From Oceanipulchritudo coccoides (lineage in GTDB: Bacteria > Verrucomicrobiota > Verrucomicrobiia > Opitutales > Oceanipulchritudinaceae), in the NCBI RefSeq assembly GCF_010500615.1, contig NZ_JAAGNX010000001.1, positions 1,007,531 through 1,071,530 of the forward strand: 64,000 nt of DNA, in the 5' to 3' direction. The notes under the pieces are model-generated. The model saw only the letters and a list, made by a program, of their open reading frames with translations. It was not told the origin of the DNA and ran no database searches. Shown here piece by piece: positions 18,838-53,656 of the stretch. The position numbers and the translations under genes were made by a program. Each line of letters begins with the position of its first letter. The stretch's first letter is position 1.

Positions 18838-20562
18838 CTAAAGCTTGATCACCTTAAGGCGCGCGAGGGTGGCGGGACCGGCGAGGGGACTGGTCACTTC
18901 AAAAGAAACCGTCTCAATCTCCGCATTGACGGCCGCGGGAATGCCAATGGGGGAAGTGGCTGCGCTGCCGTCCACCCACGTTTCCGTGACGGTGTTGTAG
19001 ATTTCGAGCGTGTAGGACAGTCCGCCGGGTTGGATGCGCCGGTTGTAGGTCAGGTTGAGAAAGGTGTCTCCCCCGGATTCAGTCAGGTAATAATTAACCG
19101 CCCTTAACTCAGCGGGATTGGTTGGGTCGAGACCCGTGGCAAACTCAACCAGGTTGAGGGTGCCGTCCAGGTCGTAGTCGTCCAGTTCCCCGGTGGCGAG
19201 GCCACCTATTATTTCCGCTTCGGTAAAGTAACGGGTCTGCCAGGAATTGAAGGGATCGGTAAAGACCGTGATCGGGATGACCTTGTTGTCCGTTTCCGGA
19301 AGGGACGGATCGTTGTCGGACAGATCGATGGTCAAATCTGTGTCCGTATTGGTTCCGGCTGTGTAAAGGAGTCCGTAGGGATCGCTCAGGGTCGTGTTGA
19401 TCTCCGTCTTGCTGGCATTGATAGTCAGGGAGGTTGATCCATTACCCGAGACCTGGGCGACCTGCACGCCACCGGGTATGTCCGTGGACAGGGACAACTG
19501 CCCGTGGGTGACGCCAAGGATCAATTGAAAACCGCTCTCCGTGTCCGGATCAGAGATACCAAGCCCGTTCAAGGGTTCGGCGAATCCGTTGGCCGCCGCG
19601 AGGGAGGTGGGCCCCTCAATTGTGGGCGGGGCATTGGGATCAACCACGTAGATCGTGACGTTGCGAATGGTCGTCTGTACGCCATCGGAGACCGACAACT
19701 GAATGGCGGCCGTGCCCGTGGCATCGGCTGTGGTGAACTGGACGGTCCGCGATCCTCCTGAACCGGTCACGACAATGGAAGCATCCGGGATCAGGCTTTC
19801 CGAAAGCGAGACCGCATCCGCCGTGAGGCTGTTCACATCGGTATCCGCATCCGAGAAACTGAAGCTGAAGGAGAGGCCCGTGGAATTGCGGACAACCGTC
19901 TGGGCAGGAACGCTGTTGATGCTGGGGGCAATGGAACCATCTGAAGGGAAGGATTCCAATCCGTAATTACCCGTGTTGGTTTGCAGATCGTAAAAGGCCA
20001 GGTACCCGCTCTCGGTATTCCATGTTCCGTTCGAGCTCTGAAGGCGGGTCTGGAAAGAGGCCGACTTGAAGGCACAGGATACAGACTCATCCGGGGCACC
20101 GCCGTTTTTGCTTCCCGACCAGCTCAGGCTCTCAACAAAAACATTGTTATAGATAAGCCGGGTCTGGGTGATAACGCCGCCACCGTAGAGGACATCGTAA
20201 TCAATCTCCAACTTATCGAATGCGGATCCCTGTGTGAGGGCCTTGAATAGTGAAGGTGACAGCGAATCGACAGGTTTAGTAAAACTGACCGAGTACAGGT
20301 CAGGATTGGAGGTGCTCGCTGTTCCGCCGCTTCCGAAACTGACGACGTTGAAAGCACCAGCGAAGAAACTCTGTATGTCCGTCCAACCATTTCGCCCGGC
20401 AGCAGTGCTCTCACCGGGTGGGGGATTCACACCTCCCGTGAACCGGGCATAGATGTCGGCTTGGGCGTGTCCAGTTTGCCAGGTTCCAATCAATGCAAGG
20501 AGCAAGAAACACGCTTCAACGCGCCTGCAGGCAAAAGCAGTCAGTTGATTCATTCCTCGCAT
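18838..20562 (-). CDS. Secreted Hcp-fold protein with cadherin-like region and C-terminal tail domain
   Basis: A 574-residue exported protein. After the signal peptide (CFLLLALIGTWQTGHAQA) residues 35-200 resemble the Hcp/T6SS-tube fold: ADIYARFTGG, PGEST, GWTDIQSFFAG, then VFVESLSWSG. Hcp proteins normally lack a signal peptide. Residues 215-445 form Ig/cadherin-like repeats (PSINSVPAQTVVRN, NAPPTIEGPTSL, and a calcium-type DTDLTIDLSDNDP). The end carries a tail domain: FNSWQTRYFTEAEIIGGLA, DYDLDGTLNLVEFATGLDP, then a beta-sandwich ending LARLKVIKL. The same tail type occurs on two other exported proteins in this window. It is the third gene in a minus-strand row, 13 bp after the shorter Hcp-like gene. 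It is a surface or extracellular protein, role unknown. Confidence 0.85.
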   Translation of the reverse strand: MRGMNQLTAFACRRVEACFLLLALIGTWQTGHAQADIYARFTGGVNPPPGESTAAGRNGWTDIQSFFAGAFNVVSFGSGGTASTSNPDLYSVSFTKPVDSLSPSLFKALTQGSAFDKLEIDYDVLYGGGVITQTRLIYNNVFVESLSWSGSKNGGAPDESVSCAFKSASFQTRLQSSNGTWNTESGYLAFYDLQTNTGNYGLESFPSDGSIAPSINSVPAQTVVRNSTGLSFSFSFSDADTDVNSLTADAVSLSESLIPDASIVVTGSGGSRTVQFTTADATGTAAIQLSVSDGVQTTIRNVTIYVVDPNAPPTIEGPTSLAAANGFAEPLNGLGISDPDTESGFQLILGVTHGQLSLSTDIPGGVQVAQVSGNGSTSLTINASKTEINTTLSDPYGLLYTAGTNTDTDLTIDLSDNDPSLPETDNKVIPITVFTDPFNSWQTRYFTEAEIIGGLATGELDDYDLDGTLNLVEFATGLDPTNPAELRAVNYYLTESGGDTFLNLTYNRRIQPGGLSYTLEIYNTVTETWVDGSAATSPIGIPAAVNAEIETVSFEVTSPLAGPATLARLKVIKL

Positions 20563-20575
20563 GGGAGGTCCTGGC

Positions 20576-21175
20576 TTATTTGGTGGGATAGGTAGCCGTG
20601 TTTGACGCTAAATCCCATTCAGCCGAGAAAGTGTCAATTTCAGCGTTCGTTTTGATATCAAAGGTCACATACTCCACCTTGACGGCTTGATAGGCCAGAC
20701 TCATACTCTGAAAGGGTTTATCATCCCCCCCCGCGACTCCCGACCAGGACATGGACTCCACAAAGACGTTTTTCATGTAAATCCGCATAAATTCAGTCGA
20801 TGAATTCGGGGTCCTCATGAAGAGCTTGATTTCAGCCACAAATTTGCCAGTCGTCAGGTTGTTGAAAAATCCCGGACTGGTCTGCCCGACGGGCATTGTC
20901 ACGTTCATTGAAGTAAGCGAGACCTTGCCGTCTCCCCCTCCGCCGCCGATGGAGCCGATGGCAAAAGGTGCACTGCCTCCCACACTGAAGGAATCGATCT
21001 CGATCCAGCCCTTGTATTCCGGGAAGGAGCCCCCATCGGATTCCCCGTCAGGAATGCCGGAGCCATCCGTCTTCATGAAGATGTCGAAGGCCCCGTTGAT
21101 GGTTGCAAGGGGGATGGAATACAGGGCAAGGCAGGCAATACCGGCGAGGATTTTTTGTGTGCGGCTGAGTTTCAT
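20576..21175 (-). CDS. Secreted Hcp-like protein (type VI tube-protein fold)
   Basis: A 199-residue protein with a signal peptide (KILAGIACLALYSIPLATINGA) followed directly by an Hcp-like domain: FDIFMKTDGSGIPDGES, YKGWIEIDSFSVGG, then NVFVESMSWSG and an even beta-strand pattern. Hcp makes the hexameric tube of type VI secretion, but it is cytoplasmic there. The Sec leader argues that this protein is exported and does not serve a T6SS; no other T6SS gene is present. I place the start at 21175, where AAGAAAGG lies seven bases upstream; the upstream open frame is not protein-like. It pairs with the larger Hcp-fold gene downstream. Function unknown. Confidence 0.85.
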   Translation of the reverse strand: MKLSRTQKILAGIACLALYSIPLATINGAFDIFMKTDGSGIPDGESDGGSFPEYKGWIEIDSFSVGGSAPFAIGSIGGGGGDGKVSLTSMNVTMPVGQTSPGFFNNLTTGKFVAEIKLFMRTPNSSTEFMRIYMKNVFVESMSWSGVAGGDDKPFQSMSLAYQAVKVEYVTFDIKTNAEIDTFSAEWDLASNTATYPTK

Positions 21176-37064: not shown

Positions 37065-40000
37065 ATGAGTAGCAGCAGCAAAGTGAGAGGTCGTTTGGAT
37101 CTCGAGGCCATGGAGCCCCGTCTGTTGTTGTCAGGAGACTCACTGGGAGTGCTTTTGACCTTGGAAACGGAGACTTTCGAAGAACCCCCGGACGCCATAA
37201 TTGTCCAGTTTGAGAATGAAATTTCCGCGGAAACGGACGGGCAAAACGGGACGGATATCTTTAGTGATATTGAGGACGAAGCGATTCTCAATGCTGCCCC
37301 AAGTGGCAGCCAAGTGGTGGAAACTGATTCCCGGAATTGTGATGTTTTTGAGTTGGAAGACTTAAAGGGGACAGTGTCCACCACACATTTTAGTGCGCCT
37401 GTCAGCGCTGTCATGATCCATGGAAATGGATCGGGTAATGACGCAGTCATGACAGAACAAATTGTCACGACCTTGCACGCGGCAAACGGCCCGCCTGCGG
37501 GTGAAGCAGTTGCTAACCAACTGGTTGAAGACATTGCTGCAAACAAAATCCAATCCGCCACCTTCCTTGCAAATGACGGAGCGTGGGAGAACGTAATCAA
37601 TGAAGCCCGGCAAAACTGGGCTCTTTTTGTATATTCAGAGGAGCTTCTGGGGCGGCTTGACGCGATCTCGGTGAGTGTGGCCGATCTGCCGGGTGGCATC
37701 CTTGGCGAGGCCCGCGGACTGGATATCACACTGGACATCGATGCGGCTGGGCGTGGCTGGTATGTTGATCCCACACCTGGCGACCATAGCGAATTTGTCC
37801 TGCAGAGTGACGGCAGTTATATTGGTGGCAACGGCGTGGATCTCCTCACCGTAGTCATGCACGAGATGGGCCACGTGCTCGGACTTGAAGATGGAGGGTA
37901 TAACGGATCGGCCGATCTGATGGATGGTGTTGTGAGCGAAGGGATTCGTTTGCTTCCGGACAGTGGCTTCGAATTATCATCATCCCTTCAACCTGTTGAG
38001 CTTGGCTACGCAGTGGCAGATGCGATTGTTGCCGGCCTGAGTACCAGTACCGAGGAAGGGTTGACGGCCATCACTGCGGCCCTGCAGGATTTGTTCGAAT
38101 CCAATTCTGCTTTCGGGAATGTTGTTCCGGGAGTCCTCGAGACCCAGGGAACAGGTGAGGACGTCGTCGAGTCAGCACCCACCGTCTTGCAGATCCTCGA
38201 TATGCCAACCGATATCGCGGAGAACTTCAGTCCCTCTGCCAATCCTGGATTCTACTACTCAGGGCCCGATACCCTTCAGGACCGGTATGAGTGGATAAAG
38301 AGCCTTGAACTGCAGATTTTCTACCCGCCCGACATCGCCAAGGATGAAGGTGCCCTCTATGCGATGGATCTGGATGGGGATGACAAGGTGACTTGGGAAG
38401 AAGCCTTCAACGTCCTCGTGGTCGGACAAATCATTTCCTATCTCAACACGGCGACGATTCTGGAATTCGATGGAGATCCGGGAATTGATGACGATGACGT
38501 CACCCTAAACCTGAACTATTTCTTCAACGGTGGCATTGCGGTTCTTATTCCGGGCTTTGAATTGCCTGATTTCCTGACAGATCGCTTCAACCTGAGCATT
38601 TCTTCGAGTATTGAGTCAATCGGGACGGACATGAAGTTTGATCTGGACCTGACCCTGTCCTTCAAACACGACAACACGCTTTATCTCGGGTATGAATCGG
38701 AGCAACTCGGAATTGTCACAGACCCGACCCTTCCTGGCTCAACCGCCAGCCCGACCCTTCTTGATGTCGATGCGGGAGTTCACTTCAAGGGTCTCATGAT
38801 CGGGTTCCTCAATGTGGGCGGTAGCGTCAGTGCCTCCGACTTTGTCTTTGCCGTACAGGACAAACCCTCCGATCCGAATGACGGCATGGTCGTGAGCGTG
38901 GAAATGGATCAGTCGGGAACCATTGATGCCGACGGATCTCCGCTTGCACGGACTTTCAATATTAACGTGGGATTCCTCGGGGCATCGGTCACCAATGGTG
39001 AAATCAAGCTTGATATGGATCAGGAAGGCGGCGCTTCTGATCCAAGTAATCCGGATGCCCTTGGATTTACCCTGGATCAGCAAGGGGTTCCTTATTCGAG
39101 CGGGGTGATCCTGGCCGACGCGGTTCCTGAGCCGGTTGATTATGTCCTCCCGAATGAAATTATTTTCACACTGACTGTTGGAACCAACACCTACAGCCCG
39201 ACAACCGAAGTGACGGTTCCGTTCCCGGACACAAATTCTCCGGCACCCAACACTTCCATTGCTGATCTCGTCGGGGATGTTGACGCCGCTCTTCCCGGTA
39301 GCCTTTCCAGCCTGATCGGTGTGGGCCACACGGGTGGTAAGATCCAGCTCAGCCTGCCGAACGTGACCACTTACAAAATTGGATTTGCCAATGAGGCCTC
39401 CGGAAGCAATTCCATCACCGGAACTTCCGCTGCGTCAGTCATCGGCAGCACCAACCCGGGAGTTGTCAGATTCCTCCTGTCCCTTGACGGCTCTCTTCCG
39501 AAATTAATCAGCTTCACACCCACAGTGGTGGATCATGACGCTGACGCAAATACGCCTGATGAAGTAACAGTCTTTACCCTCGGACTGGGATTGAATATCT
39601 CCCTTGTTCTCGAAGGTCTTGGCAGTGTGACCGCTTCGATTGACGGTGCGGGCAAAGTGACCTTCACCGCGGGGGCTGGGCACACCTTGGAAATTACCCA
39701 TACCTTGACGATTGATACCGTTTCGGAAATCACCCTTGCCGAGCTCGCAAGTGGTCAACTCTTCGATGTAGATCCCGTAGCACCCGGTGAATTCCTGCTG
39801 AATCTATCCGTGGTCACCTTGCCGGGACTGGAAAAGCCCGACAGCACGGTATGGGAACCCGTCGGAACGATTGATTTCACGCTCGATCCGTGGGACAGCA
39901 ACGTGATTGATGCAGTCATTGTCGATGTCAACCCTGTCACCGGTGATAACGTCCTCCGTTCGCGTTATGCCCTGAAAGATACCGGCGGGAATTTGCTTGC

Positions 40001-43000
40001 CGACCCCAATTCCGGATCGGACATGCACGAGTTGCTAGACTTCAATGTCATCACAACGACGGAGATCCTTGGCTTGATCAATCAGTTGGGCAACTGGTTC
40101 GGTCGCCTTAACGCAAGTGAGCTTTTCAATGAGTTTGATATTCTCTTCGCGGATCTTGCTTTGGGGAAATTGCTGGACTTCCCGGATCTCATCACCGACA
40201 CGCTGCTGATCGATGATGCCGATGACGGGGTGAAGGCAGCCACCAATGATATCAATCGTCTTTTGAATTGGGTCAAAATCAACGACCAGGATCAGCTCTC
40301 ACCCTTATTCCTGACTGCCCAGCAGTTGGAGGTTGAGTTGGCTGGAATCCTTTACGACATTGACGATGAACTTTCACTTGGGCGCTTTGCGGACCTGAAT
40401 GCCGCGAAGGATTATGTCGATGCCACCTATGACCCAATTAATGACCGCCTGACCTACGAACTTATTCTGGATCATGAATTGATCCCGCAAGAGGTTGACC
40501 TTGATTTCGATATGGATCTGGGCGACCTGGGCAGCTGGGATAGCGACACCCTCACCCAGACCGGCATCGAAGTGGAAGGGAAAGTGAAGCTACTCGCCAC
40601 CGGTCAGCTTGGCTTTACCGTTGGTCTTAAAATGGGCAACGCGGTGGAGGCTCTCATTGATTCTGCAAACTTGGCAGACCTCAATGCCGGCGCCGGGATC
40701 ACCATCAATGACCACTTGGCCCTGACCACGCTCGATGTCATCACGCCGGTTTATGGGCGCCTTAGTGCGGATGCGGAATTCAAGCTCACGGTGATCCGGT
40801 CAACGCCGAGTGTCTCTGTCCACACGATTGAAATCCTGAAGAGTGTCACAGACAACAATGACAGCCTGGACGATCTCAAGGGTGACCTGAACTGGGAGCT
40901 TATCGGCACGGGAATCACAGCTGAGATTGAAGCCGGCTACATTGTCCTGAAGGCGACCGATCCGACCATTATCCAATTCCAGATCCAGTCAAACTCCGGT
41001 AATACCGCCTTCACTGAGTTTGGACTGCAGCCCGAGGCCGCTGCAACGGTCAACTTAATCGCTCCTGCTCCGATCGACCGGGATCTTGAGGTGGCGAACA
41101 TCATTTTTGATGGGGTGGATCCCGGGTGGGATTTGCCATTTATACTGACGATTTACCGGCCCGGTGGACCCGATGTCTTCAATTTGAATGTCACTACGGC
41201 AATGACGACCGGTAACTCGACTTACAATGACCTCGTTACCGATTTCAATACCGTCATCTCAGCCGCCCTTGAACTCGAGTACGGGCTCAATGGAGCAAGT
41301 GACGTGGTCGTTAGCCAGGCTCTTGGTTACCTTGTCTTCAGCGCCACCCATGAGGATATTGTCGCCCTTAAAGTCACGCCCAATGGTGTAGTGGCGAATG
41401 AGAATCGTTCCCTTCGGGCAACCGGTCTGGACTTTTATACGCTTCAAAGAAACCTTGAGGAGATAGGGGTCGCCAGTGATGTGGATCCAACCTCCCTTGT
41501 GGCTTCGGTCGTTTACCGCGGGCCGACCATCCCGACGGATGATGCCGCGAGCGGTTCCACTTTCGGACGCCTGTCACAAGACGCGAATTTCACGATAAAC
41601 GGGGTTGCCATTTCAATTGATGAGGATGCGACAAACAAGACCAACAGTTCCATCGATGACCTTGTTTTCGACTTCAATCAGGCAATCAATGCAACATCCC
41701 TGAAGGGCAAGGTCATTGTCGAGAACATCGCTGGCTACATTCAACTGCGCTCGATTGATACCGGGATAAACTCGCTCACCATAGCTGGATTGAATTCGAC
41801 CGAAGCCCGCGAACTGGGGCTTGAGGAAACAACAAAGTCCCTTGAGCTCTCCCTGACGGCAAACAAGCTCGCACCGATTTCATACGGGGTCACAAGCGAT
41901 GCCACCTTTGAACTTGTTGTCACTGGCGGGGCCAATGCCGGCACTTTCACGGTGACGATCGACGACAATAACACAATCCGCAACCGGACCATCTACGACC
42001 TTGCAGGGACCATCAACAGCGCGATCAATGCAGCTTACATCGATTACAACGAGGCCAACACGACTGAGTTGGTGAATCCGCTGGCAGTCATTGTCCAAGC
42101 AGGAAAGATTGTCATTGGTCCGAAGATCGGTGACGGGAGCGGCGCGGCCCTCTATAATCCCTATGACGGATTAAAGAATAACCCGGCAACCTCCGCGGCG
42201 GGCATAACCGCCTTCAGTATCGAACCCACCAGCACTTCAGCAGCTGATCAGCTCAAGTTGGCGAGCGGCGTGAATGTGGTGAACAATGCGAACCTGGCTG
42301 ATCTGCTCATCTATACTCGTGATGGAAGTATGTATTCCGTTTCCCTGGACAGTTTGCGGGATCCTGCTCCAAACAGCGTGCCCAAGCTGGTCGGAACGCT
42401 GGGTGCTCTCAAGACGCTGATCAGTACGGAGACTTCAGGCAAAGTGGAATTGGCGGTGGCGAACGACGGTGTGAGCCTGCTCCTGATTGATAAATCCTTG
42501 CCGGGTGATACGGATTTCACAGATGACCCGGGTGTCTTGCGCGTGGCCATTTTCAACGGATCACCAGCGGCCATCCAGCTGGGCATTTTCGGATCGGATA
42601 CCAGTCCGCTCAATTCCGGCAGCTATATTTTCAATCCGAACTTCGGGAATCCGGACGGTATCATTGAAGGTGCCCGCGTTGCGACTGTTGATCCAGTTGA
42701 CCGGTTCTTCATCCGCGATGTCATCGCAAGTGCGAGCCTGACGGTCTCCACTGTTGATGAGGATGATTCGGGCACAACACCCGATGCGACCGCAGAGGCT
42801 AACTTTGGCTTTGTCGGGGTAAAACTCGAGACAACAAGCCAGAATCAGGAGCTCTTCACGGCAAATGTGACCGTTCCGTTTATTAAGACCGAGATGACCC
42901 TCGGCCAGCTATACGATGGATTGGTGGATACAGAAACCGTTCTCACTTTTATCGGATATCCCACCTTGAAGACGCATGAAAATCCGGATCCGCCAGCTTC

Positions 43001-46000
43001 CTTCACGTTAAAGGCATCCATTTTCCCGTCGCTCCCGTCAGGTCTTCTGACCCTTGGCGCTTCCCCGGAATTACAATTCACGATCAACAATCCCGGGTAC
43101 CTCCATCCCGACCTTGGTGACCCAAGCAATGTTGTTGAGTTTGAACTGCCGGACATCTCCGTAACGGGTGTGGATATCGGCGACCTTGCTGACTTTACAG
43201 CCCTCGAGTTTGATGGAGTGCTTGCGGCATTGAAGCAAATTTCAGCCTTTCTGGATACCTTTGCCGACTACACATTCCTCGGGGAGGAGATCCCCCTCAT
43301 CGGGGTGAGTGTCAATGACCTGCTCGAAGTGGCGGAAAAATTTGGTGATGCCGTGGAAGCAGTTGAATTGAATCCGGCCGGTGGCTTGCAATTGCTGGAT
43401 CAGAAGATCCGTGAAGCCTTCACGCTTCCTGAATTTGCCAATCCGAGCGCCCTCAATGACTACTTTGCCAATCTGGGAATTCCGGACCCGACAGACCTGA
43501 TCACTTTTGCCTTGGAAAACCTCACCGGTGGCGACTTCCTTCGCTTCGATCTTCGCTTGCCGATTGGCTTCAGTGAAGGCCGATCCATTGATCTGGATCT
43601 TGGCGAAGCCCTTGGCGTCGATCTGGGTCCTGTCGATATACAGGGTGGGGCAGGCTTTAACCTGACCGGTTACCTCGATGCCCGTCTGTCATTTGGCATC
43701 GACCTGAACGATCCCACAAAGATCCATCTCTTCACCAACGCCAGTGGTGTCTTCGGAAAACTCTCAGCAAAGGCCAGTAACCTCGCCTTTAATGCAGCCC
43801 TTGGTCCGCTTGGTGTCTTTATCAAGGACGGCAACATTGATGTGTCGATCACCTTTGAGCTGGATAACGGAGCATTCGCTGCAGGCTCGGATGTGCACAC
43901 AGAAATCAGCTCTGCAAGTGACCTTGCGGGATTGTTCCTTGGTGATGATGTCGATGACTTTTCGCCCAGCCTGACCGGGTCGATTGCAGCAACCTTGCCG
44001 GTCTATGTTCCGACCGATTCCGATTTCCTTGGGGATATCAAGCTCGACCTGACGGGAACAAATGCCATCTCCATAGCGCAGCTGTCACCGGATTACGGAC
44101 TGGTCATTCCGAATTTCAGCGACCCTGGAATTCTTACCATACCGGACTTCAGCGGCATTGATCTCTCCTCCATCAATCCCTTCAACAGCATCCCGCTGAT
44201 GCTGGATTCCCTCGATTTCTTCCTCTTGGGATTGCAGGATATTGTCGATGGTGAGGTCTTTGGGTTTGAGCTGCCATTGATTGGCGACCAGCTTTCCAGC
44301 GCCGCCGGCTTCATAGATGACCTCCGCAAGGACGTGATCAAACCGATCCGGCAATTTGTCGAACAAGCACCCGAGCTCGGACAGGAATTGATCCAGAAGC
44401 TGATCTTCTCACTTCTTGGCCCAGGTAGTGATGATGTGACCTTTGGAGGCGACTCCCTCCATGGCTTCCTTGGCCTTTCGAGCCCGATTCCCGGTCTTGA
44501 TTTACTTGTCAATTACCTGACCGGAGCTGACCTGCCCGGAACCATTACCCAAGCTGTCATCGACTCGGCTGTTGTCGCCAGCAACCCTGCGGAAAATGAC
44601 TTCCGCTGGCTGTTCCGCTTGCGTGACGAATTTACTCCGCCTGTCGATTTTGATTTTGACCTGGGCTGGGATGCGCTCGGCCTGGACATGGACGTGGGGC
44701 TTGATGTCACCATGTCGTGGGATCTCGCTCTTGGCCTTGGAATCAGCCTGACCGATGGAGCGTACCTCTACGTTGGCGACCATGGCCGGACGGATGGGGA
44801 TGCGGATACGGAAGAACTAGTCCTGAATCTTGAGGTCGAGCTTGAGGATGGTTCCGATCTTGATGGTCGACTGGCCTTCCTTCAGCTGATTGCAGAGGAG
44901 TCAACAGTCCCTGATCCCGACCTCGAAGGCGAAAACACTTACTTTGAGGCGACCTTCAAGGTCGACTTGATCGAGAAAAACCCGACGGACGTGAACGACG
45001 GAAATATCCTCACCTTCTCTGAACTGGGGAGCCTGGATGCAGTCGTTTCCATGGATGCTGAAGCGGAAGTGAACCTCTTCCTGCGGCTCCAGTTCAATGA
45101 AGACCTGCTGCCCGAGGCTGTCACCGCGCTTCTTCCTGCAGTGGAGGCACGATTTGTCCTTGATTGGGAAACGGGGGATATCTTTGCCGATAACTTCAGC
45201 CTTGGCGGAAGCCTCAAGCTCCTTGCCTTCAAGGAAGTCACTTTTGATCTTGGTTCCTTCCTGAATGATTTCCTAGGTCCGGTACTTGGCAAGATTCAGG
45301 AAATCACCGGTCCCTTGCAGCCGATTATTGATGTCGTGACATTCCCGATACCGGTGATCTCACAACTGGCTGGACAGCCAGTGACGCTTGTCGATATTGC
45401 CGGCCTCACGGGGTATGTCGAACCTGCGATGATCTATGCGATTGCCGACATCATCGAGTTGATCAACAAGATTGACGCCAGTTCCGACTCCTTGACCGTG
45501 ACATTGGGAGACTTTGCCCTGATTGACACGGCAGGCGGGGTGGGCGATGCCAGCCTTGCTGAAAGCCTTTCCCTTCCAACCTTCGATCTGTCGAATGACA
45601 CCGTCTTTGACCTGAATGGTGCCTTGACCGACAGTGGCCTCGGAAGCTTTATCGACAATATCGGGGCTTTCAAGGATCTCCTTTCCGGAGAGACTGGCAG
45701 CACTGCTGACCTGACCAAGGACCTCATCAGCGACTCGGAAGCTGGGAGTAGCGGCTTCAAGTTCCCCATCTACGAAAATCCTGCCTCTATCTTTGGACTT
45801 CTTCTTGGGAGAAATGTTGATTTGGTAACTTACGACCTTGCACCCTTCGGGATGGACTTCACCTACACCCAGAAGTTCCCGATTTGGGACGGACTCTTCG
45901 CACGCATTACCGGAAGTGCCGGACTGACCATTGACCTGGCCTTTGGCTATGACACTCAGGGCGTCCGGGAATTTGCCGATGGCGGATTCAGCAACCCGCT

Positions 46001-49000
46001 TGATCTGCTCGCTGGCTTCTTTGTCAGTGATACAAACCTTGGCCCGACCGATGTGCCCGAGCTGGTCCTTCGTGGTGAGCTCTTTGCCGGGGCCGAGCTC
46101 AACCTGGGTATTGCCAGTGCCGGTGCTGAAGGCGGAATAATCCTGACGGTCAACTTCGACCTTTTCGATCCGGACCGCGACGGTAAAGTCCGTGTGGATG
46201 AATTGCTGGGTAACTTCCTGTACGAATTCCAATACGGCAATCCGCTGCTGGCCCCCGTCGCCATCTTTGATGTCTTCGGTGATGTCGTTGCACAATTGCG
46301 GCTCTTTGTTGAATCCGCCTTCTTCAAATTCACTTTCAATATCACACCGCCGATCACCCTCTTTGAATTCAGTATTCCATTTGAACGTGAGCCCTTCCTG
46401 GCCACCGAACGGGGTGACGGGACCGTCCTGCTCAATATTGGTCCGAATTCAATCCAGCGCCTGAACGGCGATACCCGGGACATTGCCGAAAAGATTTATG
46501 TCCGCAGCCTTGATTCCAACACCATTGAAGTCTGGGGAGAAGATCTCGGTGTGAAGGAAAGTGCTGCCCAGAAATACGATCTTGGTGAAAATAAGATCAT
46601 CGTCGGATATGGCGGAGAAGGGAATGATTTGATCGACCTTTCGGGTGTCACGCATGATGGCATTTCCTACATCATTGAAGGTGGTGCTGGGGATGACACC
46701 CTTATCGGGGCACAGGCCGGCGGCATCATTAGAGGCGACGAAGGGAATGACACACTCACAGGTGGAGACGGAACTGACCTGATAATCGGTGGTGAAGGAA
46801 GCGACACTATTCATGGTGGTGGAAGTCGCGACTACATCTTCGGGGATACGGGAAGACTTTCTGTTAGTGATCAGGGAACTGACACACCCCTGGATGACAT
46901 AGCCCTCCGTATCCGTGCGCTTTCAGGTGAGCGGGACGGGGTGGATACCATCTTCGGCGATGGGGGTGACGATATCATCTTCGGAGGAGGAAATATTGAT
47001 ACGATCAATGGTGACGCAGGTGATGACCTGATCTTCGGTGACGGTGGATATTTTGAATTTGTCAGTGGTGATATTCCGATGAACGGCGGCTTTATCGATC
47101 TGGATGAGCTCAGTTTCCGCGGCCCGGGAGCCAAGGACATCATCTACGGTAATGCGGACAAGGATACCATCCTTGCAGGTGCTGGTGACGACTTTGTTGA
47201 CGGTGGTGCACAGAATGACGTCATCCTCGGTGGATACGGGTTTGATACACTCTATGGTGGAACAGGCGCCGACTACATTTACGGTAACGAAAATGACGAT
47301 ATTATCTTCGGGTTGCGCGATCCTTATCCGCCAAGCGCCTTCACACCGGATGCCGCGGATAATGTAGACGACGACTTGGGTGACTATGTCGAGGGTGGAG
47401 ATGGAAATGACTACATCCGTGGTCAAGCGAACGACGATACCCTACATGGCAACCGTGGCGCTGATATCATCTTCGGCGGCACCGAGGAAGATACCATCGG
47501 CGCCGGTGTCCTGATGGAACCCTGGAATCCAAGCCCCGTTTATCCTGTCTACGACAATGAAGCCGGTGGCGACATTATCTTTGGTGGAGCAGACGACGAC
47601 ACAATCGACGCGGGTGAAGGTTCTGATATCGTCTTCGGTGATGATGGGCTCGTCGCCTATCTCGACTTTGATGATACAACCGGATTGCTCCCAGTTGGAC
47701 AGACCGGATCACGGATCCGCACTGATTCGGGCGGCACCCACAAGCTGATTGGCGATGATGATGCTTCCCTCATCGGCACTTATGGCACAATTGATGACAC
47801 TGATACTCTCAGCCTCGACTTGATCGTGACTGCACCGGTCGCCACAGACGGCTCGGACTACATAGTCGGCGGAAACGGCAAGGATATCATCTTTGGTGGC
47901 GGTAGTGATGCTGGTGTCCTGCCCACAGGCCCGCAAAGGGATACGATTTTTGGAGACTTTGACCCGAGTGTCGAACTGATCGGACCGCGTCCATCCGGTC
48001 AGGATTTGATCATTGGTGACGGGGGCCGGATTGAACTCTTCGGCCGGCGGTATGCCAAGGCAAAGGCCATTTCCGACTCGAACGACGGAGTGGACTACAT
48101 TTCCGGCAACGACAACGGTGACTACATCTTTGGTGGTGGCGATGAAGACAGGATTTATGGATTCGAGGATCCCGTAAGCTTCTCAAATTCGCTGCTCGAG
48201 GGAGTCAGTGATAATGATGTCATTCTCGGTGACAACGGGGAAATCCACTACAATGCGAATGAGTTGGAGAATCGCATCAAGAAGATCTACACCACCTACA
48301 CAGCCGGTGACTCAGGTCGCTCCGATTACATCTTGGGGAATGAAGGCAACGATGTCATTCTGGGTGGACTCAACAGCAGCGAGGATATCCTGAACGGGAA
48401 TCTTGGTTCCGATGTGATCATCGGTGACCAGGGTGAGCTCATCTTTGATGCAGACGCTGACCTCGATACTCTGGACAGCATCAGCTCGTACGACAACAAC
48501 CTGGGTGGATCGGATATTATTTCCGGGCATCAGGGTGATGATGTCCTGATCGGTGGAACAGCTGGTGATACGATGTACGGCGACGATGCCACGGCCTCAA
48601 ACGGAGCGGATGACGGCGAAGACATCATGCTCGGTGACAATGGGGATATTTTCCTCATTGGTCTTACCGGACGCCTCCTTGTCCAAGTCGCGGCAATGCC
48701 CGCAGGGACCGCAGTGGACCTGATCGAGACAAAGGATTCGGCTGAATCAACCGGTGGTCCCGATATCATGTCAGGCAATGCCAAGGCAGACATCATGCTC
48801 GGTGGCGTGAATAATGCCGGAGTGGACACGATGTTCGGGGACATCGACTCAACGACCCCGGCGACAATTGCTGACGACGGCAATGACATCCTCCTTGGCG
48901 ACAACGGCCTGCTCGACTTTACCTATCTCACAGACACCGATCGCAACACGCTCGACCTGATCCAGTCAGCTGAGGACACTTTTGGAGGGACTGACATCAT

Positions 49001-52000
49001 CTCCGGCAACAAGGGTCTTGACGTGGCAATCGGCGGGACCGGAGGCGACACCATATACGGTGATGACGCCACTGCATCCGCAGCCGATGCTGATCTTGAA
49101 GACCTGCTCATCGGCGACAATGCTGACATCTTCCTGGTGGCCGTAAACGGGGCGACGGGGCCGGACCTGAAGGTTGTCCTCGACACGGCCGTCAAGACCA
49201 TCACCACGACAGATACGATTGATTGGAGCAATACCGGTGGAGTGGATACAATTTCCGGTAATGCGAAGGGCGACATCATCGCTGGTGGTGTTTTCGGTGA
49301 CTTGATTTACGGTGACCGGGAAGTTCCGAATCCGACGACAACGGGCGATGATGGGGACGACCTCATCCTGGGGGACAACGGCTCCTTCGAATGGTTGTCC
49401 ACCGGGCGCCTTTCGGAAGTCCTCGGAATCGATGTATTTGCGAATAACTACGACTTGTACAACTGGTTCGATGTTGGAACCGATACGGACCTTGGTACCC
49501 TCGACCTCGTGACAACCGAGCAACCGACATTCGGTGGCCGGGACATGATCTATGGGGACGAGGGCAATGACGTTGTCTTTGGCGGAACTGATACCGACAT
49601 TATTTATGGTGATGACGGGGATGAAGTCGGGACGACCACCAACAACGACGTCCTCTTTGGTGACCATGGTCGCCTCTATCCGCAGTTTGCCCGCTTCGAG
49701 CTTCCGAACAGCACGGTTCTGGTCCCTGCTGATTATCCTTCGCGCAACTTCTTCGCCATTGACACGGGCGATACCCATGGCGGTGCCGGCGATGTCATGC
49801 ATGGGGAAGAGGGCGATGACCTGATGGTTGGACAGCAGGGTGATGACCGTATGTGGGGCGGCAGTGAAGACGACGATATGATCGGCGGGCACAACGTTGC
49901 CGAGGGATATGATGAGCTGGGAACGCCCGTGATCGATGCGCTCCTGAATCCTCCGGATAATCTGGCCATGAACGACCTCATGGACGGCGGCACTGGCAAT
50001 GACGCCATGGCAGGCGACAATGCCATCATCTGGCGTCGTGGGGACGACATTACACCGCGCTTCCGGGAAGTGATGGGTGACGTGATCTACACCACCGGTC
50101 CGGACCAGGTTGACACCATCATCACGAACGTCGGTTCCGTCTACCAGAGCGATCCGGATGATGCCGCAGGGCGTGATGTTCAACTCCTCAACCACTCAGA
50201 TGCTGTTCAGGCCAATCCGCTTGGGCGCTATGGAGCAGATGTCATGGCCGGTGGGGCCGACTCAGATGTGATGTATGGCCAGTTGGGTGATGACCTTATG
50301 CAAGGCGACGGATCGATTGAATCAGTTGCCGTGGGTAATCCCTACATCAGCCATCAACTGGATGTGAGCGACTCCGGTAACAATCCGGACACGGATGAAA
50401 CACTTTACTTCAATATTCCTGAAGCCGTCACGGACGGGAATGATTACATGGAAGGCAATGGCGGTAACGATCTCATGTATGGCGGTCTTGGCCAGGACGA
50501 TATCATTGGCGGCAGCTCGGCGCTTTTCGGGTTGGATGCGGCAAATGCCCTGATCCTCGGAGTCGAGGAGGAAGCCCTGCGACCGGACGGATCTGACATT
50601 ATCTTTGGCGGGGCAGGAATTGATATTGCAAGAAATGACATTGGCGATGCCACCGAAGACGGAGTAACGCACGTCATCACAACCGATCCCACAGGCCACT
50701 CCCGTGACGCGGATTACATCATGGGCGACAATGCCAATGTCTATCGCCTCGTGGATGCTGCTGAGGATGCATTCCTCGTCTTCAATTACGACCTGACCAC
50801 GGAATTTGAAAACCGGGGAACTTCAGCTGACAAGATTATCCCGCGTGCCATGGAGCAGCTTGACTACACGCTCGGTGGTGCGGATTACGCCGGTGGCACT
50901 TACACCCCGGATGGCGTTGCTGACATTTTGAATGGTCTCGTTGATAACGGATTGCCTGATGTGATTCATGGTGAATCCGGTGATGATATCATCTTCGGCA
51001 TGACCGGTAGCGACGTCCTCTACGGGGAAGGCCAGGATGACGACATTGTCGGCGGCTACGGCAATGACTGGATCTCTGGTGGTACCGGGCAGGACGGCGT
51101 GCTCGGGGACGACGGGTTGATTCTCACCAGTCGCAACAGCACGATCGGCGAACCGCTTTATGGAATTGATGGGCTGCTTGCCTCCGATACGACCCGCAAG
51201 TATTCCAATGGAGACGCCCTTGATGAAACCATTTCCACACCCGGTGACATCCAGATCGCGATCATTAACGTGACGGGTGCCCTGAAGAAGACAATTGATC
51301 TGGTCCCGTTCAGCTATGATCCGCTTTGGATAGGAATGGATGACGAGTTCCCGGATAACGATACAAACATCCCATTTGCCGATGATATTATCTTTGGCGG
51401 CCTTGGGAGCGACTTCCTGCACGGTGCTTCCGGCGATGATGCCATCTCCGGCGCGGAAGCCCTTCCGCATGCCTATGTTCCGGTCTTCAATCTTCTTGGT
51501 GAAGCTGTCGGCATCCTCGATCTTGGATACGATGCCTTCACGATTACAAATCCCATCAATCCGGGAGATGTCCCTGACCTGACACTGAATCCGGGAGATG
51601 TCCTGGCCTTCAATCCAATTGATCTGGATGGACAGCATTTGAACAACCGCTTCCGTGCTGGGGAATTCTTCCTCTATGATGAATATGACCCGCTCAGGAA
51701 GATCCTTCTCGATTCGGATGGGAACCTTTGGAAGTCCGACTTGCAGGGTGTAGCTTATGAATTCCTGCTGAACTTTGACGAGTCCGAAGGCGTTGTGCGC
51801 GAGGCCGGATTGGTCCCGAAGCCAACCGGGCAGCAGACCGAAGATTATCCGCAGGTCAATGATGACGGCAAGGACGCCCTCTTCGGTGATAATGGCAACG
51901 ACTGGCTCGTTGGTGGTACCGGTCGCGATAATTCCTATGGAGGGTGGGGCAACGATCTTCTCAATGCGGATGATGACCACGACGGCCATGATGATAGTAG

Positions 52001-53621
52001 CGACTTGAACAATACACCAGACACACATCCGACTTATGAAGACCGTGCCTACGGTGGTGCCGGGCGTGATGTCCTGATCGCTAATACGGGTGGTGACCGT
52101 CTCATTGACTGGGTTGGTGAATACAATAGCTACCTTGTGCCGTATGCCCCGTTTGGCATGGCGTCGGTCAGCCGGACTATGCAGCCGTTCCTGCCGGAAT
52201 TCCTTTATGCTCTGTCTTCAGGTGATGGTGCTGATCCGACACGCTATGAAGATGCAATCAGCACCAATGTTCCTGAACCAACTCGCAATAATCCAAACCC
52301 ATCCCGCAATGGTGAACCGTTTGGCGAGCTGGGCCTCGTCCTGCAAAAGGATTATGCATGGCAGGCGCAGACCGGTGCTCCCGCTGACCCGCAGGCCGGT
52401 AATATTCCCGGAGGCCCGCGTGATGTCCTTCGCACCTCCAGTTTCAATGACGGATATTCCGACGGCTTCTTCGCTGATAGCGGATTGTGGGCGGTTGAGG
52501 CCGGTGCATTCAGCGTGGCACCAGCAGTGCCCGGCGGGGATGCCCTGAGCGTGTATTATGTTGATCAATACATTCCGCAATACTTTGAAATGATGGCGAC
52601 CTTGAATCCGGAAAAGCCGACAGGGGGAATCAAGAGCAATGCCTACATTATCTTCGATTACCAGACCGAGACTGATTTCAAGTTTGCCGGGATCAATGTC
52701 TCCAGCAACAAACTTGAAATCGGGCATCGTACGGATGACGCTTGGGTAGTGGATGTCCAGTCACCTGTTTCCGGATCCCTCAAGTCCGGGATCAACTACA
52801 ACATCTTCCTGGCCATTAACGGAAGCAATGTAACACTCGTGGTCGACAATACTTACACCCTGACCCACACCTTTGAGCTGCGTGTCGATGAGCAAGGTTA
52901 CACCTACGGCCTCAGTAAGGGCATGGTTGGCTTGGGCGCCAATAACTCCGTTGCGACAATTGATAATGTAGTTGTGCAAAAGCTCGCCCCGGAAGTGACT
53001 TTCACGGAATCCTCGGACTTTGTATCACCCACGCGAATGGGGTTTGACGTCCAGACTGCCGGATGGGCCTGTTCCGACGGTTGGTACACCGGGTCAGCTG
53101 ACGGTGGTCTGCCAGCTGTCAATCTGATCACCAGCGCGGTTTCCCCGGCTGCCTTGATCATCCTTTCCACAACGCTCAACACGACAGGCGAGGGGGGCTT
53201 TGTCTTCGATTATTATGGACCGGATGATTACAAGTTTGTCACCCTTTCACAGGCAACAAATGAGATCCTGATCGGGCACCAGACCTCCAAGGGACTCGTC
53301 ACCGATGCCGCATTCTCGGATTCTTCCCTGGGATCCGGAGACCATGACCTCCAGATGACCCTCAAGGGAAGCACGCTGAGTGTGGTCTGGAATGGCCAAT
53401 TGGTTCTCAGTCATGCCTTCAATGCGATTGTCACCGATGGGGCCTTTGGAATTCTCAGTAACTCAGGTGCGACATCCTTCGATCAGGTCACTTTCCAGAC
53501 CGACGATCCGGCCTACAGCAGTGATGGTTATCCGGATGTATATTTTGTAAAGGACCAGTCGAGCTACTACTGGGAAGACTACGATTACGTGGATGATGAC
53601 TGGATTGAACCTACCCCGTAA
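37065..53621 (+). CDS. Giant LEPR-XLL protein with metzincin site, flagellin-IN-like, RTX and LamG-like modules
   Basis: A single open frame of 5518 codons. Residues 1-24 are a LEPR-XLL leader (LEAMEPRLLLSGD), a short N-terminal motif of unknown role found on giant proteins of Verrucomicrobia and Planctomycetes. A metzincin-like site HEMGHVLGLED is at about 266-276 with a downstream DLMDG turn. EF-hand-like loops occur near 434 (DLDGDDKVTWEE) and 3034 (FDPDRDGKVRVDEL). The region 700-1700 contains five flagellin-IN-like motifs. Residues about 1900-3150 form long barrel-like or beta-helix-like segments with no name. From 3180 to 5015 there are dense RTX calcium-binding repeats, followed by a conserved linker (GELGLVLQKDYAWQAQTG) and two LamG-like domains to the end. 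A TTGACA lies 44 bp upstream without a good -10, and AGGGG precedes the ATG closely. It is likely a secreted or surface-attached adhesin, possibly a protease. Confidence 0.93.
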   Translation: MSSSSKVRGRLDLEAMEPRLLLSGDSLGVLLTLETETFEEPPDAIIVQFENEISAETDGQNGTDIFSDIEDEAILNAAPSGSQVVETDSRNCDVFELEDLKGTVSTTHFSAPVSAVMIHGNGSGNDAVMTEQIVTTLHAANGPPAGEAVANQLVEDIAANKIQSATFLANDGAWENVINEARQNWALFVYSEELLGRLDAISVSVADLPGGILGEARGLDITLDIDAAGRGWYVDPTPGDHSEFVLQSDGSYIGGNGVDLLTVVMHEMGHVLGLEDGGYNGSADLMDGVVSEGIRLLPDSGFELSSSLQPVELGYAVADAIVAGLSTSTEEGLTAITAALQDLFESNSAFGNVVPGVLETQGTGEDVVESAPTVLQILDMPTDIAENFSPSANPGFYYSGPDTLQDRYEWIKSLELQIFYPPDIAKDEGALYAMDLDGDDKVTWEEAFNVLVVGQIISYLNTATILEFDGDPGIDDDDVTLNLNYFFNGGIAVLIPGFELPDFLTDRFNLSISSSIESIGTDMKFDLDLTLSFKHDNTLYLGYESEQLGIVTDPTLPGSTASPTLLDVDAGVHFKGLMIGFLNVGGSVSASDFVFAVQDKPSDPNDGMVVSVEMDQSGTIDADGSPLARTFNINVGFLGASVTNGEIKLDMDQEGGASDPSNPDALGFTLDQQGVPYSSGVILADAVPEPVDYVLPNEIIFTLTVGTNTYSPTTEVTVPFPDTNSPAPNTSIADLVGDVDAALPGSLSSLIGVGHTGGKIQLSLPNVTTYKIGFANEASGSNSITGTSAASVIGSTNPGVVRFLLSLDGSLPKLISFTPTVVDHDADANTPDEVTVFTLGLGLNISLVLEGLGSVTASIDGAGKVTFTAGAGHTLEITHTLTIDTVSEITLAELASGQLFDVDPVAPGEFLLNLSVVTLPGLEKPDSTVWEPVGTIDFTLDPWDSNVIDAVIVDVNPVTGDNVLRSRYALKDTGGNLLADPNSGSDMHELLDFNVITTTEILGLINQLGNWFGRLNASELFNEFDILFADLALGKLLDFPDLITDTLLIDDADDGVKAATNDINRLLNWVKINDQDQLSPLFLTAQQLEVELAGILYDIDDELSLGRFADLNAAKDYVDATYDPINDRLTYELILDHELIPQEVDLDFDMDLGDLGSWDSDTLTQTGIEVEGKVKLLATGQLGFTVGLKMGNAVEALIDSANLADLNAGAGITINDHLALTTLDVITPVYGRLSADAEFKLTVIRSTPSVSVHTIEILKSVTDNNDSLDDLKGDLNWELIGTGITAEIEAGYIVLKATDPTIIQFQIQSNSGNTAFTEFGLQPEAAATVNLIAPAPIDRDLEVANIIFDGVDPGWDLPFILTIYRPGGPDVFNLNVTTAMTTGNSTYNDLVTDFNTVISAALELEYGLNGASDVVVSQALGYLVFSATHEDIVALKVTPNGVVANENRSLRATGLDFYTLQRNLEEIGVASDVDPTSLVASVVYRGPTIPTDDAASGSTFGRLSQDANFTINGVAISIDEDATNKTNSSIDDLVFDFNQAINATSLKGKVIVENIAGYIQLRSIDTGINSLTIAGLNSTEARELGLEETTKSLELSLTANKLAPISYGVTSDATFELVVTGGANAGTFTVTIDDNNTIRNRTIYDLAGTINSAINAAYIDYNEANTTELVNPLAVIVQAGKIVIGPKIGDGSGAALYNPYDGLKNNPATSAAGITAFSIEPTSTSAADQLKLASGVNVVNNANLADLLIYTRDGSMYSVSLDSLRDPAPNSVPKLVGTLGALKTLISTETSGKVELAVANDGVSLLLIDKSLPGDTDFTDDPGVLRVAIFNGSPAAIQLGIFGSDTSPLNSGSYIFNPNFGNPDGIIEGARVATVDPVDRFFIRDVIASASLTVSTVDEDDSGTTPDATAEANFGFVGVKLETTSQNQELFTANVTVPFIKTEMTLGQLYDGLVDTETVLTFIGYPTLKTHENPDPPASFTLKASIFPSLPSGLLTLGASPELQFTINNPGYLHPDLGDPSNVVEFELPDISVTGVDIGDLADFTALEFDGVLAALKQISAFLDTFADYTFLGEEIPLIGVSVNDLLEVAEKFGDAVEAVELNPAGGLQLLDQKIREAFTLPEFANPSALNDYFANLGIPDPTDLITFALENLTGGDFLRFDLRLPIGFSEGRSIDLDLGEALGVDLGPVDIQGGAGFNLTGYLDARLSFGIDLNDPTKIHLFTNASGVFGKLSAKASNLAFNAALGPLGVFIKDGNIDVSITFELDNGAFAAGSDVHTEISSASDLAGLFLGDDVDDFSPSLTGSIAATLPVYVPTDSDFLGDIKLDLTGTNAISIAQLSPDYGLVIPNFSDPGILTIPDFSGIDLSSINPFNSIPLMLDSLDFFLLGLQDIVDGEVFGFELPLIGDQLSSAAGFIDDLRKDVIKPIRQFVEQAPELGQELIQKLIFSLLGPGSDDVTFGGDSLHGFLGLSSPIPGLDLLVNYLTGADLPGTITQAVIDSAVVASNPAENDFRWLFRLRDEFTPPVDFDFDLGWDALGLDMDVGLDVTMSWDLALGLGISLTDGAYLYVGDHGRTDGDADTEELVLNLEVELEDGSDLDGRLAFLQLIAEESTVPDPDLEGENTYFEATFKVDLIEKNPTDVNDGNILTFSELGSLDAVVSMDAEAEVNLFLRLQFNEDLLPEAVTALLPAVEARFVLDWETGDIFADNFSLGGSLKLLAFKEVTFDLGSFLNDFLGPVLGKIQEITGPLQPIIDVVTFPIPVISQLAGQPVTLVDIAGLTGYVEPAMIYAIADIIELINKIDASSDSLTVTLGDFALIDTAGGVGDASLAESLSLPTFDLSNDTVFDLNGALTDSGLGSFIDNIGAFKDLLSGETGSTADLTKDLISDSEAGSSGFKFPIYENPASIFGLLLGRNVDLVTYDLAPFGMDFTYTQKFPIWDGLFARITGSAGLTIDLAFGYDTQGVREFADGGFSNPLDLLAGFFVSDTNLGPTDVPELVLRGELFAGAELNLGIASAGAEGGIILTVNFDLFDPDRDGKVRVDELLGNFLYEFQYGNPLLAPVAIFDVFGDVVAQLRLFVESAFFKFTFNITPPITLFEFSIPFEREPFLATERGDGTVLLNIGPNSIQRLNGDTRDIAEKIYVRSLDSNTIEVWGEDLGVKESAAQKYDLGENKIIVGYGGEGNDLIDLSGVTHDGISYIIEGGAGDDTLIGAQAGGIIRGDEGNDTLTGGDGTDLIIGGEGSDTIHGGGSRDYIFGDTGRLSVSDQGTDTPLDDIALRIRALSGERDGVDTIFGDGGDDIIFGGGNIDTINGDAGDDLIFGDGGYFEFVSGDIPMNGGFIDLDELSFRGPGAKDIIYGNADKDTILAGAGDDFVDGGAQNDVILGGYGFDTLYGGTGADYIYGNENDDIIFGLRDPYPPSAFTPDAADNVDDDLGDYVEGGDGNDYIRGQANDDTLHGNRGADIIFGGTEEDTIGAGVLMEPWNPSPVYPVYDNEAGGDIIFGGADDDTIDAGEGSDIVFGDDGLVAYLDFDDTTGLLPVGQTGSRIRTDSGGTHKLIGDDDASLIGTYGTIDDTDTLSLDLIVTAPVATDGSDYIVGGNGKDIIFGGGSDAGVLPTGPQRDTIFGDFDPSVELIGPRPSGQDLIIGDGGRIELFGRRYAKAKAISDSNDGVDYISGNDNGDYIFGGGDEDRIYGFEDPVSFSNSLLEGVSDNDVILGDNGEIHYNANELENRIKKIYTTYTAGDSGRSDYILGNEGNDVILGGLNSSEDILNGNLGSDVIIGDQGELIFDADADLDTLDSISSYDNNLGGSDIISGHQGDDVLIGGTAGDTMYGDDATASNGADDGEDIMLGDNGDIFLIGLTGRLLVQVAAMPAGTAVDLIETKDSAESTGGPDIMSGNAKADIMLGGVNNAGVDTMFGDIDSTTPATIADDGNDILLGDNGLLDFTYLTDTDRNTLDLIQSAEDTFGGTDIISGNKGLDVAIGGTGGDTIYGDDATASAADADLEDLLIGDNADIFLVAVNGATGPDLKVVLDTAVKTITTTDTIDWSNTGGVDTISGNAKGDIIAGGVFGDLIYGDREVPNPTTTGDDGDDLILGDNGSFEWLSTGRLSEVLGIDVFANNYDLYNWFDVGTDTDLGTLDLVTTEQPTFGGRDMIYGDEGNDVVFGGTDTDIIYGDDGDEVGTTTNNDVLFGDHGRLYPQFARFELPNSTVLVPADYPSRNFFAIDTGDTHGGAGDVMHGEEGDDLMVGQQGDDRMWGGSEDDDMIGGHNVAEGYDELGTPVIDALLNPPDNLAMNDLMDGGTGNDAMAGDNAIIWRRGDDITPRFREVMGDVIYTTGPDQVDTIITNVGSVYQSDPDDAAGRDVQLLNHSDAVQANPLGRYGADVMAGGADSDVMYGQLGDDLMQGDGSIESVAVGNPYISHQLDVSDSGNNPDTDETLYFNIPEAVTDGNDYMEGNGGNDLMYGGLGQDDIIGGSSALFGLDAANALILGVEEEALRPDGSDIIFGGAGIDIARNDIGDATEDGVTHVITTDPTGHSRDADYIMGDNANVYRLVDAAEDAFLVFNYDLTTEFENRGTSADKIIPRAMEQLDYTLGGADYAGGTYTPDGVADILNGLVDNGLPDVIHGESGDDIIFGMTGSDVLYGEGQDDDIVGGYGNDWISGGTGQDGVLGDDGLILTSRNSTIGEPLYGIDGLLASDTTRKYSNGDALDETISTPGDIQIAIINVTGALKKTIDLVPFSYDPLWIGMDDEFPDNDTNIPFADDIIFGGLGSDFLHGASGDDAISGAEALPHAYVPVFNLLGEAVGILDLGYDAFTITNPINPGDVPDLTLNPGDVLAFNPIDLDGQHLNNRFRAGEFFLYDEYDPLRKILLDSDGNLWKSDLQGVAYEFLLNFDESEGVVREAGLVPKPTGQQTEDYPQVNDDGKDALFGDNGNDWLVGGTGRDNSYGGWGNDLLNADDDHDGHDDSSDLNNTPDTHPTYEDRAYGGAGRDVLIANTGGDRLIDWVGEYNSYLVPYAPFGMASVSRTMQPFLPEFLYALSSGDGADPTRYEDAISTNVPEPTRNNPNPSRNGEPFGELGLVLQKDYAWQAQTGAPADPQAGNIPGGPRDVLRTSSFNDGYSDGFFADSGLWAVEAGAFSVAPAVPGGDALSVYYVDQYIPQYFEMMATLNPEKPTGGIKSNAYIIFDYQTETDFKFAGINVSSNKLEIGHRTDDAWVVDVQSPVSGSLKSGINYNIFLAINGSNVTLVVDNTYTLTHTFELRVDEQGYTYGLSKGMVGLGANNSVATIDNVVVQKLAPEVTFTESSDFVSPTRMGFDVQTAGWACSDGWYTGSADGGLPAVNLITSAVSPAALIILSTTLNTTGEGGFVFDYYGPDDYKFVTLSQATNEILIGHQTSKGLVTDAAFSDSSLGSGDHDLQMTLKGSTLSVVWNGQLVLSHAFNAIVTDGAFGILSNSGATSFDQVTFQTDDPAYSSDGYPDVYFVKDQSSYYWEDYDYVDDDWIEPTP
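39160..42120 (+). repeat. Flagellin-IN-like motif repeats in the giant protein
   Basis: Five copies of a motif N-S/T-x-x-x-DL-x-x-D/T-F/V/L-N/D-x-x-I/L occur, for example NTSIADLVGDV, NDSLDDLKGDL, NSTYNDLVTDF, NSSIDDLVFDF and NRTIYDLAGTI. Each sits after a strand pair ending in T-L/F-x-V or T-I-N-G and before a short strand, as in flagellin hook-IN domains. The domain boundaries are by eye. Confidence 0.5.
46605..52112 (+). repeat. RTX (hemolysin-type) calcium-binding repeat region
   Basis: Dozens of G-G-x-G-x-D-type nonapeptides, for example GGAGDDTLIGGEGSDTIHGG and GDGGDDIIFGGGNIDTINGD. Between about 48500 and 49560 the array is organised in super-units of roughly 80 residues: RTX strands (DIISGNxGxDVxIGGTxGDTxYGDD), an acidic stretch, then LxGDNGxIFL and a variable segment. 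RTX arrays bind calcium and form beta-rolls outside the cell. The classical type I secretion apparatus is not in this window. Confidence 0.9.
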
Positions 53622-53656
53622 AAAGAGGGTTGTCCTCGGCTAGTGACTTTAGCAAT

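Follow-up and report, generated by a model that had tools for sequence, protein, structure and literature searches.

Hcp (TssD) proteins form the inner tube of the type VI secretion system (T6SS) and are recognized by the Pfam family T6SS_HCP (PF05638) and the NCBIfam family TIGR03344. The Hcp fold assembles into rings in known cases, Hcps bearing C-terminal extensions ('evolved' Hcps) are known in the T6SS, and Hcp is often used as a T6SS marker. In Bacteroides fragilis, two different Hcps are combined in one ring, the Hcp2-Hcp3 heterohexamer, a T6SS component according to the titles of its structure entries (9vne and 9vnd). The tube proteins of phages, pyocins and extracellular contractile injection systems (eCIS), which have a related fold, belong to tailed or contractile particles. 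Small TssI-associated clusters have been described in some genomes lacking a T6SS, in an excerpt that does not mention leaders (PMC4793230). Here we analyze two adjacent genes, HcpS and HcpL, located in a stretch of 64,000 nucleotides from Oceanipulchritudo coccoides (phylum Verrucomicrobiota; the window, in whose positions all coordinates of the pair are given), which encode a short and a long Hcp-fold protein with N-terminal leaders. We estimate at roughly one half the probability that they are a Sec-exported, T6SS-independent pair, with Hcp domains that assemble into periplasmic or surface-located rings and an HcpL tail that serves for anchoring or sorting. The predicted export and the independence from a T6SS are well supported by the sequence data; assembly into a ring or tube may reasonably be inferred from the fold.

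Fold and leaders of HcpS and HcpL

HcpS lies upstream of HcpL on the same strand with a gap of 13 bases, and the two genes are probably co-transcribed. Their parts are as follows (aa, amino acids):

20576-21175, minus strand: HcpS gene, 199 aa, ATG at 21175; short leader-bearing Hcp-fold protein
21092-21175, minus strand: HcpS N-terminal leader, approximately residues 1-28 (heuristic; end estimated from homologues, cleavage point uncertain)
20669-21079, minus strand: HcpS Hcp domain, residues 33-169 (Pfam T6SS_HCP)
18838-20562, minus strand: HcpL gene, 574 aa, ATG start; long leader-bearing Hcp-fold protein
20458-20562, minus strand: HcpL Sec leader, residues 1-35, with AQA cleavage motif (heuristic; the structure model has a helix at 5-26)
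19966-20463, minus strand: HcpL Hcp domain, model residues 34-199 (counterpart of Hcp1 residues 2-162 in the structural alignment)
19258-19929, minus strand: HcpL middle region, Ig/cadherin-like by eye (Big_9/Cadherin in relatives; low model confidence, no Pfam match here)
18841-19245, minus strand: HcpL C-terminal module, residues 440-574, an acidic DxDxDG-type stretch and a beta-rich tail; recurs in the genome

A first-pass annotation of the window, made from the sequence alone, had placed two adjacent Hcp-fold genes at 18838-21175. These coordinates are right, and both products exceed the 23.5-bit T6SS_HCP cut-off, HcpS with 69.4 bits (E 4.7e-19) and HcpL with 51.1 bits (E 2.2e-13). Among solved Hcps, the best sequence matches are 5xeu, 7fcf and 1y12 for HcpS, and 4w64 and 3eaa for HcpL. 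The structure prediction that the annotation had asked for returned the Hcp fold for HcpL: the model, computed from a 26-row alignment, superimposes on P. aeruginosa Hcp1 (1y12) with Z 19.2 and an rmsd of 2.8 over 158 residues, and its pLDDT block means are 72-96 for residues 31-200. For residues 216-574, pLDDT is below 50 except in two short stretches, and conclusions on the fold are drawn only up to about residue 210. By title, nearly all of the 50 Foldseek matches listed for HcpL are Hcp or T6SS proteins, the remainder being two Hcp1-containing fusion entries and one uncharacterised Burkholderia protein. Structural studies have employed fusions of Hcp1 with other proteins, as is evident from chain names among the sequence matches. 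The related folds of the tail-tube proteins match the model with Z 11 (pyocin tube), 8-10 (PVC/AFP) and 9 (lambda tube). A single-sequence model of HcpS (pLDDT 37.5) was discarded as too poor, and the fold of this protein rests on the sequence matches.

While HcpL shares the fold of Hcp/TssD over the whole domain, the window pair differs from this family in having Sec leaders, in scoring below the TssD cut-off and in occurring in a genome without a T6SS marker. In the structural alignment, residue 34 of HcpL is the first to be paired, with residue 2 of Hcp1; the leader occupies the place of the start methionine of an ordinary Hcp. Against the TIGR03344 (TssD) cut-off of 58.9 bits, the window proteins reach only 25.6 and 16.1 bits; five other leader-bearing HcpS proteins score 59.5, 58.9, 56.6, 40.0 and 39.5, and all five leaderless Hcps in the comparison, four of them from TssC-positive genomes and one (L059) from a genome without a TssC test, lie above it (66.7-129.8 bits). 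G- and L-numbers denote genomes and loci, respectively; G000 is the genome of the window (3.52 Mb, 99.4% complete).

Leaders were called, without SignalP, by a heuristic of our own that looks for positive charge at the N-terminus followed by a hydrophobic run. Since it accepts ATG, GTG and TTG starts, it is biased towards finding leaders, and the starts of proteins scored as leaderless are approximate. By this heuristic, both HcpS and HcpL have the n- and h-region of a signal peptide. The c-region of HcpL is good, with an A-Q-A signal-peptidase site, and several homologues have clean A-x-A sites. That of HcpS is weak: because its best-scoring site, at residue 17, is unconvincing and the I-N-G-A expected from homologues (about residue 28) is weak, cleavage is less sure. 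Thus, of the cleavable leaders initially proposed for the two proteins, both leaders stand, and the predicted cleavage is well founded for HcpL, less so for HcpS.

The pair had also been described as standing without any other T6SS gene. Whole-genome searches of G000 gave no match for TssC, TssK or VgrG-type gpD, other T6SS genes not having been searched, nor for the phage-type sheath (PF04984); for these three T6SS marker families and the sheath family, the statement therefore holds genome-wide.

Leaders and TssC in two phyla

Hcp was found in 33 of the 387 genomes of our Verrucomicrobiota sample. TssC was present in 12 of the 29 Hcp genomes not previously searched and, in addition, in G091, the only one of the order's 23 Hcp-positive genomes in which TssC (over the cut-off) or TssK was detected. 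In total, 81 Hcp open reading frames (ORFs) from 45 Verrucomicrobiota genomes (13 TssC-positive, 32 TssC-negative) were translated and scored for leaders, which we found in none of the 16 Hcps from TssC-positive genomes, but in 62 of the 65 from TssC-negative ones. For one of the three leaderless exceptions, in G264, inspection by eye shows a leader in frame after an ATT codon with AGGAG before it, ATT lying outside the starts that the heuristic allows; the other two form a single pair in G378. This Hcp-like pair (L151, 1065-2042) has neighbours that, by eye, are unlike T6SS genes.

Among Gemmatimonadota, 18 of 150 genomes contain Hcp, and leaders are again absent from TssC-positive genomes (0 of 16 Hcps) and present in TssC-negative ones (2 of 2, although one of these two genomes, G523, was the seed of that phylum's search). 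For both phyla combined, none of 32 Hcps from TssC-positive genomes has a leader, as opposed to 64 of 67 from TssC-negative genomes. Counted per genome, the ratio of leader to no leader is 33:1 without TssC and 0:29 with it (Fisher p 4e-17, a value that overstates the association because the species are related and because the window and G523 served as seeds). Given the relatedness of the genomes, these counts are not independent events; the pattern does recur in two phyla, and under the single genus label g95, the TssC-positive G398 has a leaderless Hcp, whereas the TssC-negative G387 has a leader-bearing pair.

By eye, 18 proteobacterial Hcps (23 of 44 loci were translated) are leaderless, and TssC is present in the two genomes of these loci that were tested. 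Only L058 (Rhodoferax, TssC-positive) is ambiguous, as a TTG start would take in a hydrophobic stretch in frame upstream of the likely ATG. Seven of the 23 order-level Hcp-positive genomes (G032, G048, G064, G078, G099, G111 and G167) were left out of the leader counts, their matches being broken, partial or embedded. Of these, G111 has a leader by eye, and the first pieces in G032 and G078 bear leaders; the pieces of G048 and G167 are uninformative. The leader-bearing Hcp-like proteins of G111 (L020), G078 (L018) and G032 (L047) carry GLATGKRDAAS-type repeat insertions within the Hcp domain, and those of G078 and G032 are split over frames.

The two-gene cassette and the HcpL tail

The two-gene arrangement recurs: 24 of the 32 TssC-negative genomes, from nine family labels, contain a total of 26 adjacent same-strand Hcp pairs. 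In all 26, the longer gene comes second, and the intergenic gaps range from -28 to 63 bases. This count includes the leaderless pair of G378, whose two genes are nearly equal in length. TssC-positive G091, for its part, has four adjacent Hcps in a row, all leaderless. The genes are under purifying selection, dN/dS being 0.24-0.28 in three gene comparisons (dS was saturated in the fourth). This conserved order, together with the association between leaders and TssC in two phyla, gives good support to the initial suggestion of an exported family with a role apart from the T6SS.

In an all-against-all comparison of the ORFs of 14 loci and the window (later loci, L130-L164, left out), no neighbour gene other than the Hcps themselves proved to be broadly conserved. 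An oxidoreductase-like ORF group is present in four loci at varying distance, and other common genes are confined to close relatives. The single-Hcp genomes G083, G104 and G117 have in common a neighbour of about 500 aa that is leader-bearing by eye and gave no Pfam match in the copy scanned (L044); at L044, L048 and L050, this protein, standing beside a single leader-bearing Hcp, perhaps substitutes for HcpL.

Beyond its Hcp domain, the HcpL of the window has no Pfam match at E<=0.1. In relatives, however, this part of the protein matches Big_9 in G139 (E 2.5e-4, just under the cut-off) and Big_9 (E 1.1e-11) and Cadherin (E 1.2e-8) in G384, and TSP3_bac matches occur among the HcpLs as well. 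The cadherin-like repeats ascribed to HcpL at first are thus plausible by analogy with these relatives, but unproven in the window protein itself. The tail domain noted at the same time proved to be a module common to other proteins of the genome: the last 135 residues of HcpL have 15 other matches in G000 at E<=1e-3. The open frames containing them are 468-1444 aa long, and 12 of the matches end no more than 45 residues from the C-terminus of the protein. Thirteen of the 15 proteins have a leader by our heuristic; of the other two, one is truncated at the edge of the stretch retrieved and one has a hydrophobic start lacking a preceding charged residue. Since its tail is common to leader-bearing proteins and its relatives contain Big_9, Cadherin and TSP3_bac stretches, HcpL is built like other exported proteins of the genome.

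One of the 15 proteins is encoded in the window itself (53630-57403, plus strand); its 1257 aa comprise Calx-beta, a DUF5122 propeller, a metallopeptidase-like stretch and the HcpL-type C-terminal module. The giant ORF at 37065-53621 (plus strand) encodes 5518 aa, of which residues 1-2000 are without a Pfam match at E<=1e-3.

Proposed role and alternative explanations

According to the reading that we favour, HcpS and HcpL would be exported by Sec and their leaders cleaved, clearly so for HcpL, less clearly for HcpS. Since the Hcp fold gives rings in known cases, the exported Hcp domains may then form six-membered rings, of HcpS alone or of HcpS and HcpL mixed, in the periplasm or at the cell surface. 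HcpL would anchor the assembly through its Ig/cadherin-like and C-terminal modules, or display several adhesive or sorting tails, with HcpS supplying the remaining ring subunits or building a short tube. The B. fragilis heterohexamer may serve as a model for such a mixed ring, although it differs in being part of a T6SS. Unlike phage, pyocin and eCIS tubes, which are parts of larger particles, the pair occurs in a genome without a sheath match. Thus, a tube component seems to have found a new use beyond the cell interior, given the export signals, the lack of a detected machine in the genome and the two-gene arrangement kept by many relatives.

Several observations weigh against this reading. 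In TssC-negative genomes, 13 of the 65 Hcp ORFs stand outside a pair, and the weak cleavage motif of HcpS could leave this protein membrane-bound. Of 33 TssC-negative Hcp genomes searched, five (G433, G072, G391, G021 and G139) contain a phage-type sheath and two (G336 and G021) a VgrG-type gpD match; four of them (G072, G391, G021 and G139) have an Hcp pair. The Hcp domains embedded in large proteins of G099 and G064 are as compatible with an extracellular module of general use as with a ring. Finally, a two-clade origin of HcpS and HcpL is not supported: a tree of Hcps (91 rows, quick method, weakly resolved; one short G091 ORF omitted) requires 15 and 14 label changes for it, and the partners of a pair group with each other in G391, G312 and G461. 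The tree therefore does not show a heteromer kept since a single duplication; the many label changes, with partners as nearest relatives, make repeated tandem duplication or conversion possible. T6SS Hcps tend to cluster together in this tree, in which L061 is labelled T6prot despite its leader and TssC-negative genome. As to the five phage-type sheaths, they possibly belong to prophages or injection particles.

The chief rival, which we regard as a serious possibility short of even odds, is that the Hcp domain is a plain extracellular beta-barrel module for adhesion or ligand binding, monomeric or loosely oligomeric and forming neither rings nor tubes. HcpL would then be an ordinary surface protein of modular build, accompanied by HcpS as a soluble partner. 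This would account for the Hcp domains found deep inside larger frames, measured from stop to stop, in G099 (L016, 836 aa) and G064 (L051, 636 aa), both of which seem by eye to start with a leader (a stop interrupts the G064 match), for the repeat inserted within the Hcp domain of G111, for the Big_9, Cadherin or TSP3 stretches after the Hcp domain in relatives, and for an HcpL tail that is a general module of the genome. However, a generic module has no need of the pair order kept in 26 of 26 cases, and the match to Hcp1 (Z 19.2) spans the whole domain. That the leaders are instead uncleaved membrane anchors, from which one or both proteins would hang into the periplasm at the inner membrane, agrees with the poor c-region of HcpS, but is improbable in view of the A-Q-A site of HcpL and the clean sites of several homologues.

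We consider it slightly more improbable still that the proteins are relic or orphan T6SS Hcps, or an evolved Hcp carrying an effector at its C-terminus, and that they formerly served, or are borrowed by, a T6SS. The Pfam family is indeed a T6SS family, and C-terminally extended Hcps are familiar from the T6SS; like these, HcpL has extra domains after its Hcp domain. In contrast to them, its tail module also occurs in other leader-bearing proteins encoded by the genome, a Pfam scan of HcpL returned no toxin domain, and the protein has a leader and no accompanying T6SS marker. The distribution of leaders (0/32 versus 64/67), the purifying selection, the low TssD scores of the window proteins and the lack of TssC, TssK or VgrG-type matches in G000 likewise argue against a relic.

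Returning to the Sec-exported pair, one may ask how far the proposal extends. We offer only tentatively, and with more doubt than conviction, that in Verrucomicrobiota, and sporadically in Gemmatimonadota, a tail-tube protein was turned into a Sec-exported extracellular or periplasmic ring or tube appendage that lacks a sheath, a baseplate and a spike, is anchored by HcpL and has two subunits in most of the Verrucomicrobiota seen. A literature search poor in subscription papers and preprints returned no title reporting Sec-exported Hcps in Verrucomicrobia, which is weak evidence of novelty. Automatic naming may hide such proteins, as the Pfam family is named T6SS effector Hcp and, of the leader-bearing HcpS proteins scored, one exceeds the TssD cut-off (59.5) and one equals it as printed (58.9). 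The occurrence of leader-bearing Hcps in TssC-negative genomes means that T6SS calls made from Hcp would be wrong for part of the Verrucomicrobiota, and with these proteins the reuse of a phage-like tube fold beyond the cytoplasm can be tested directly.
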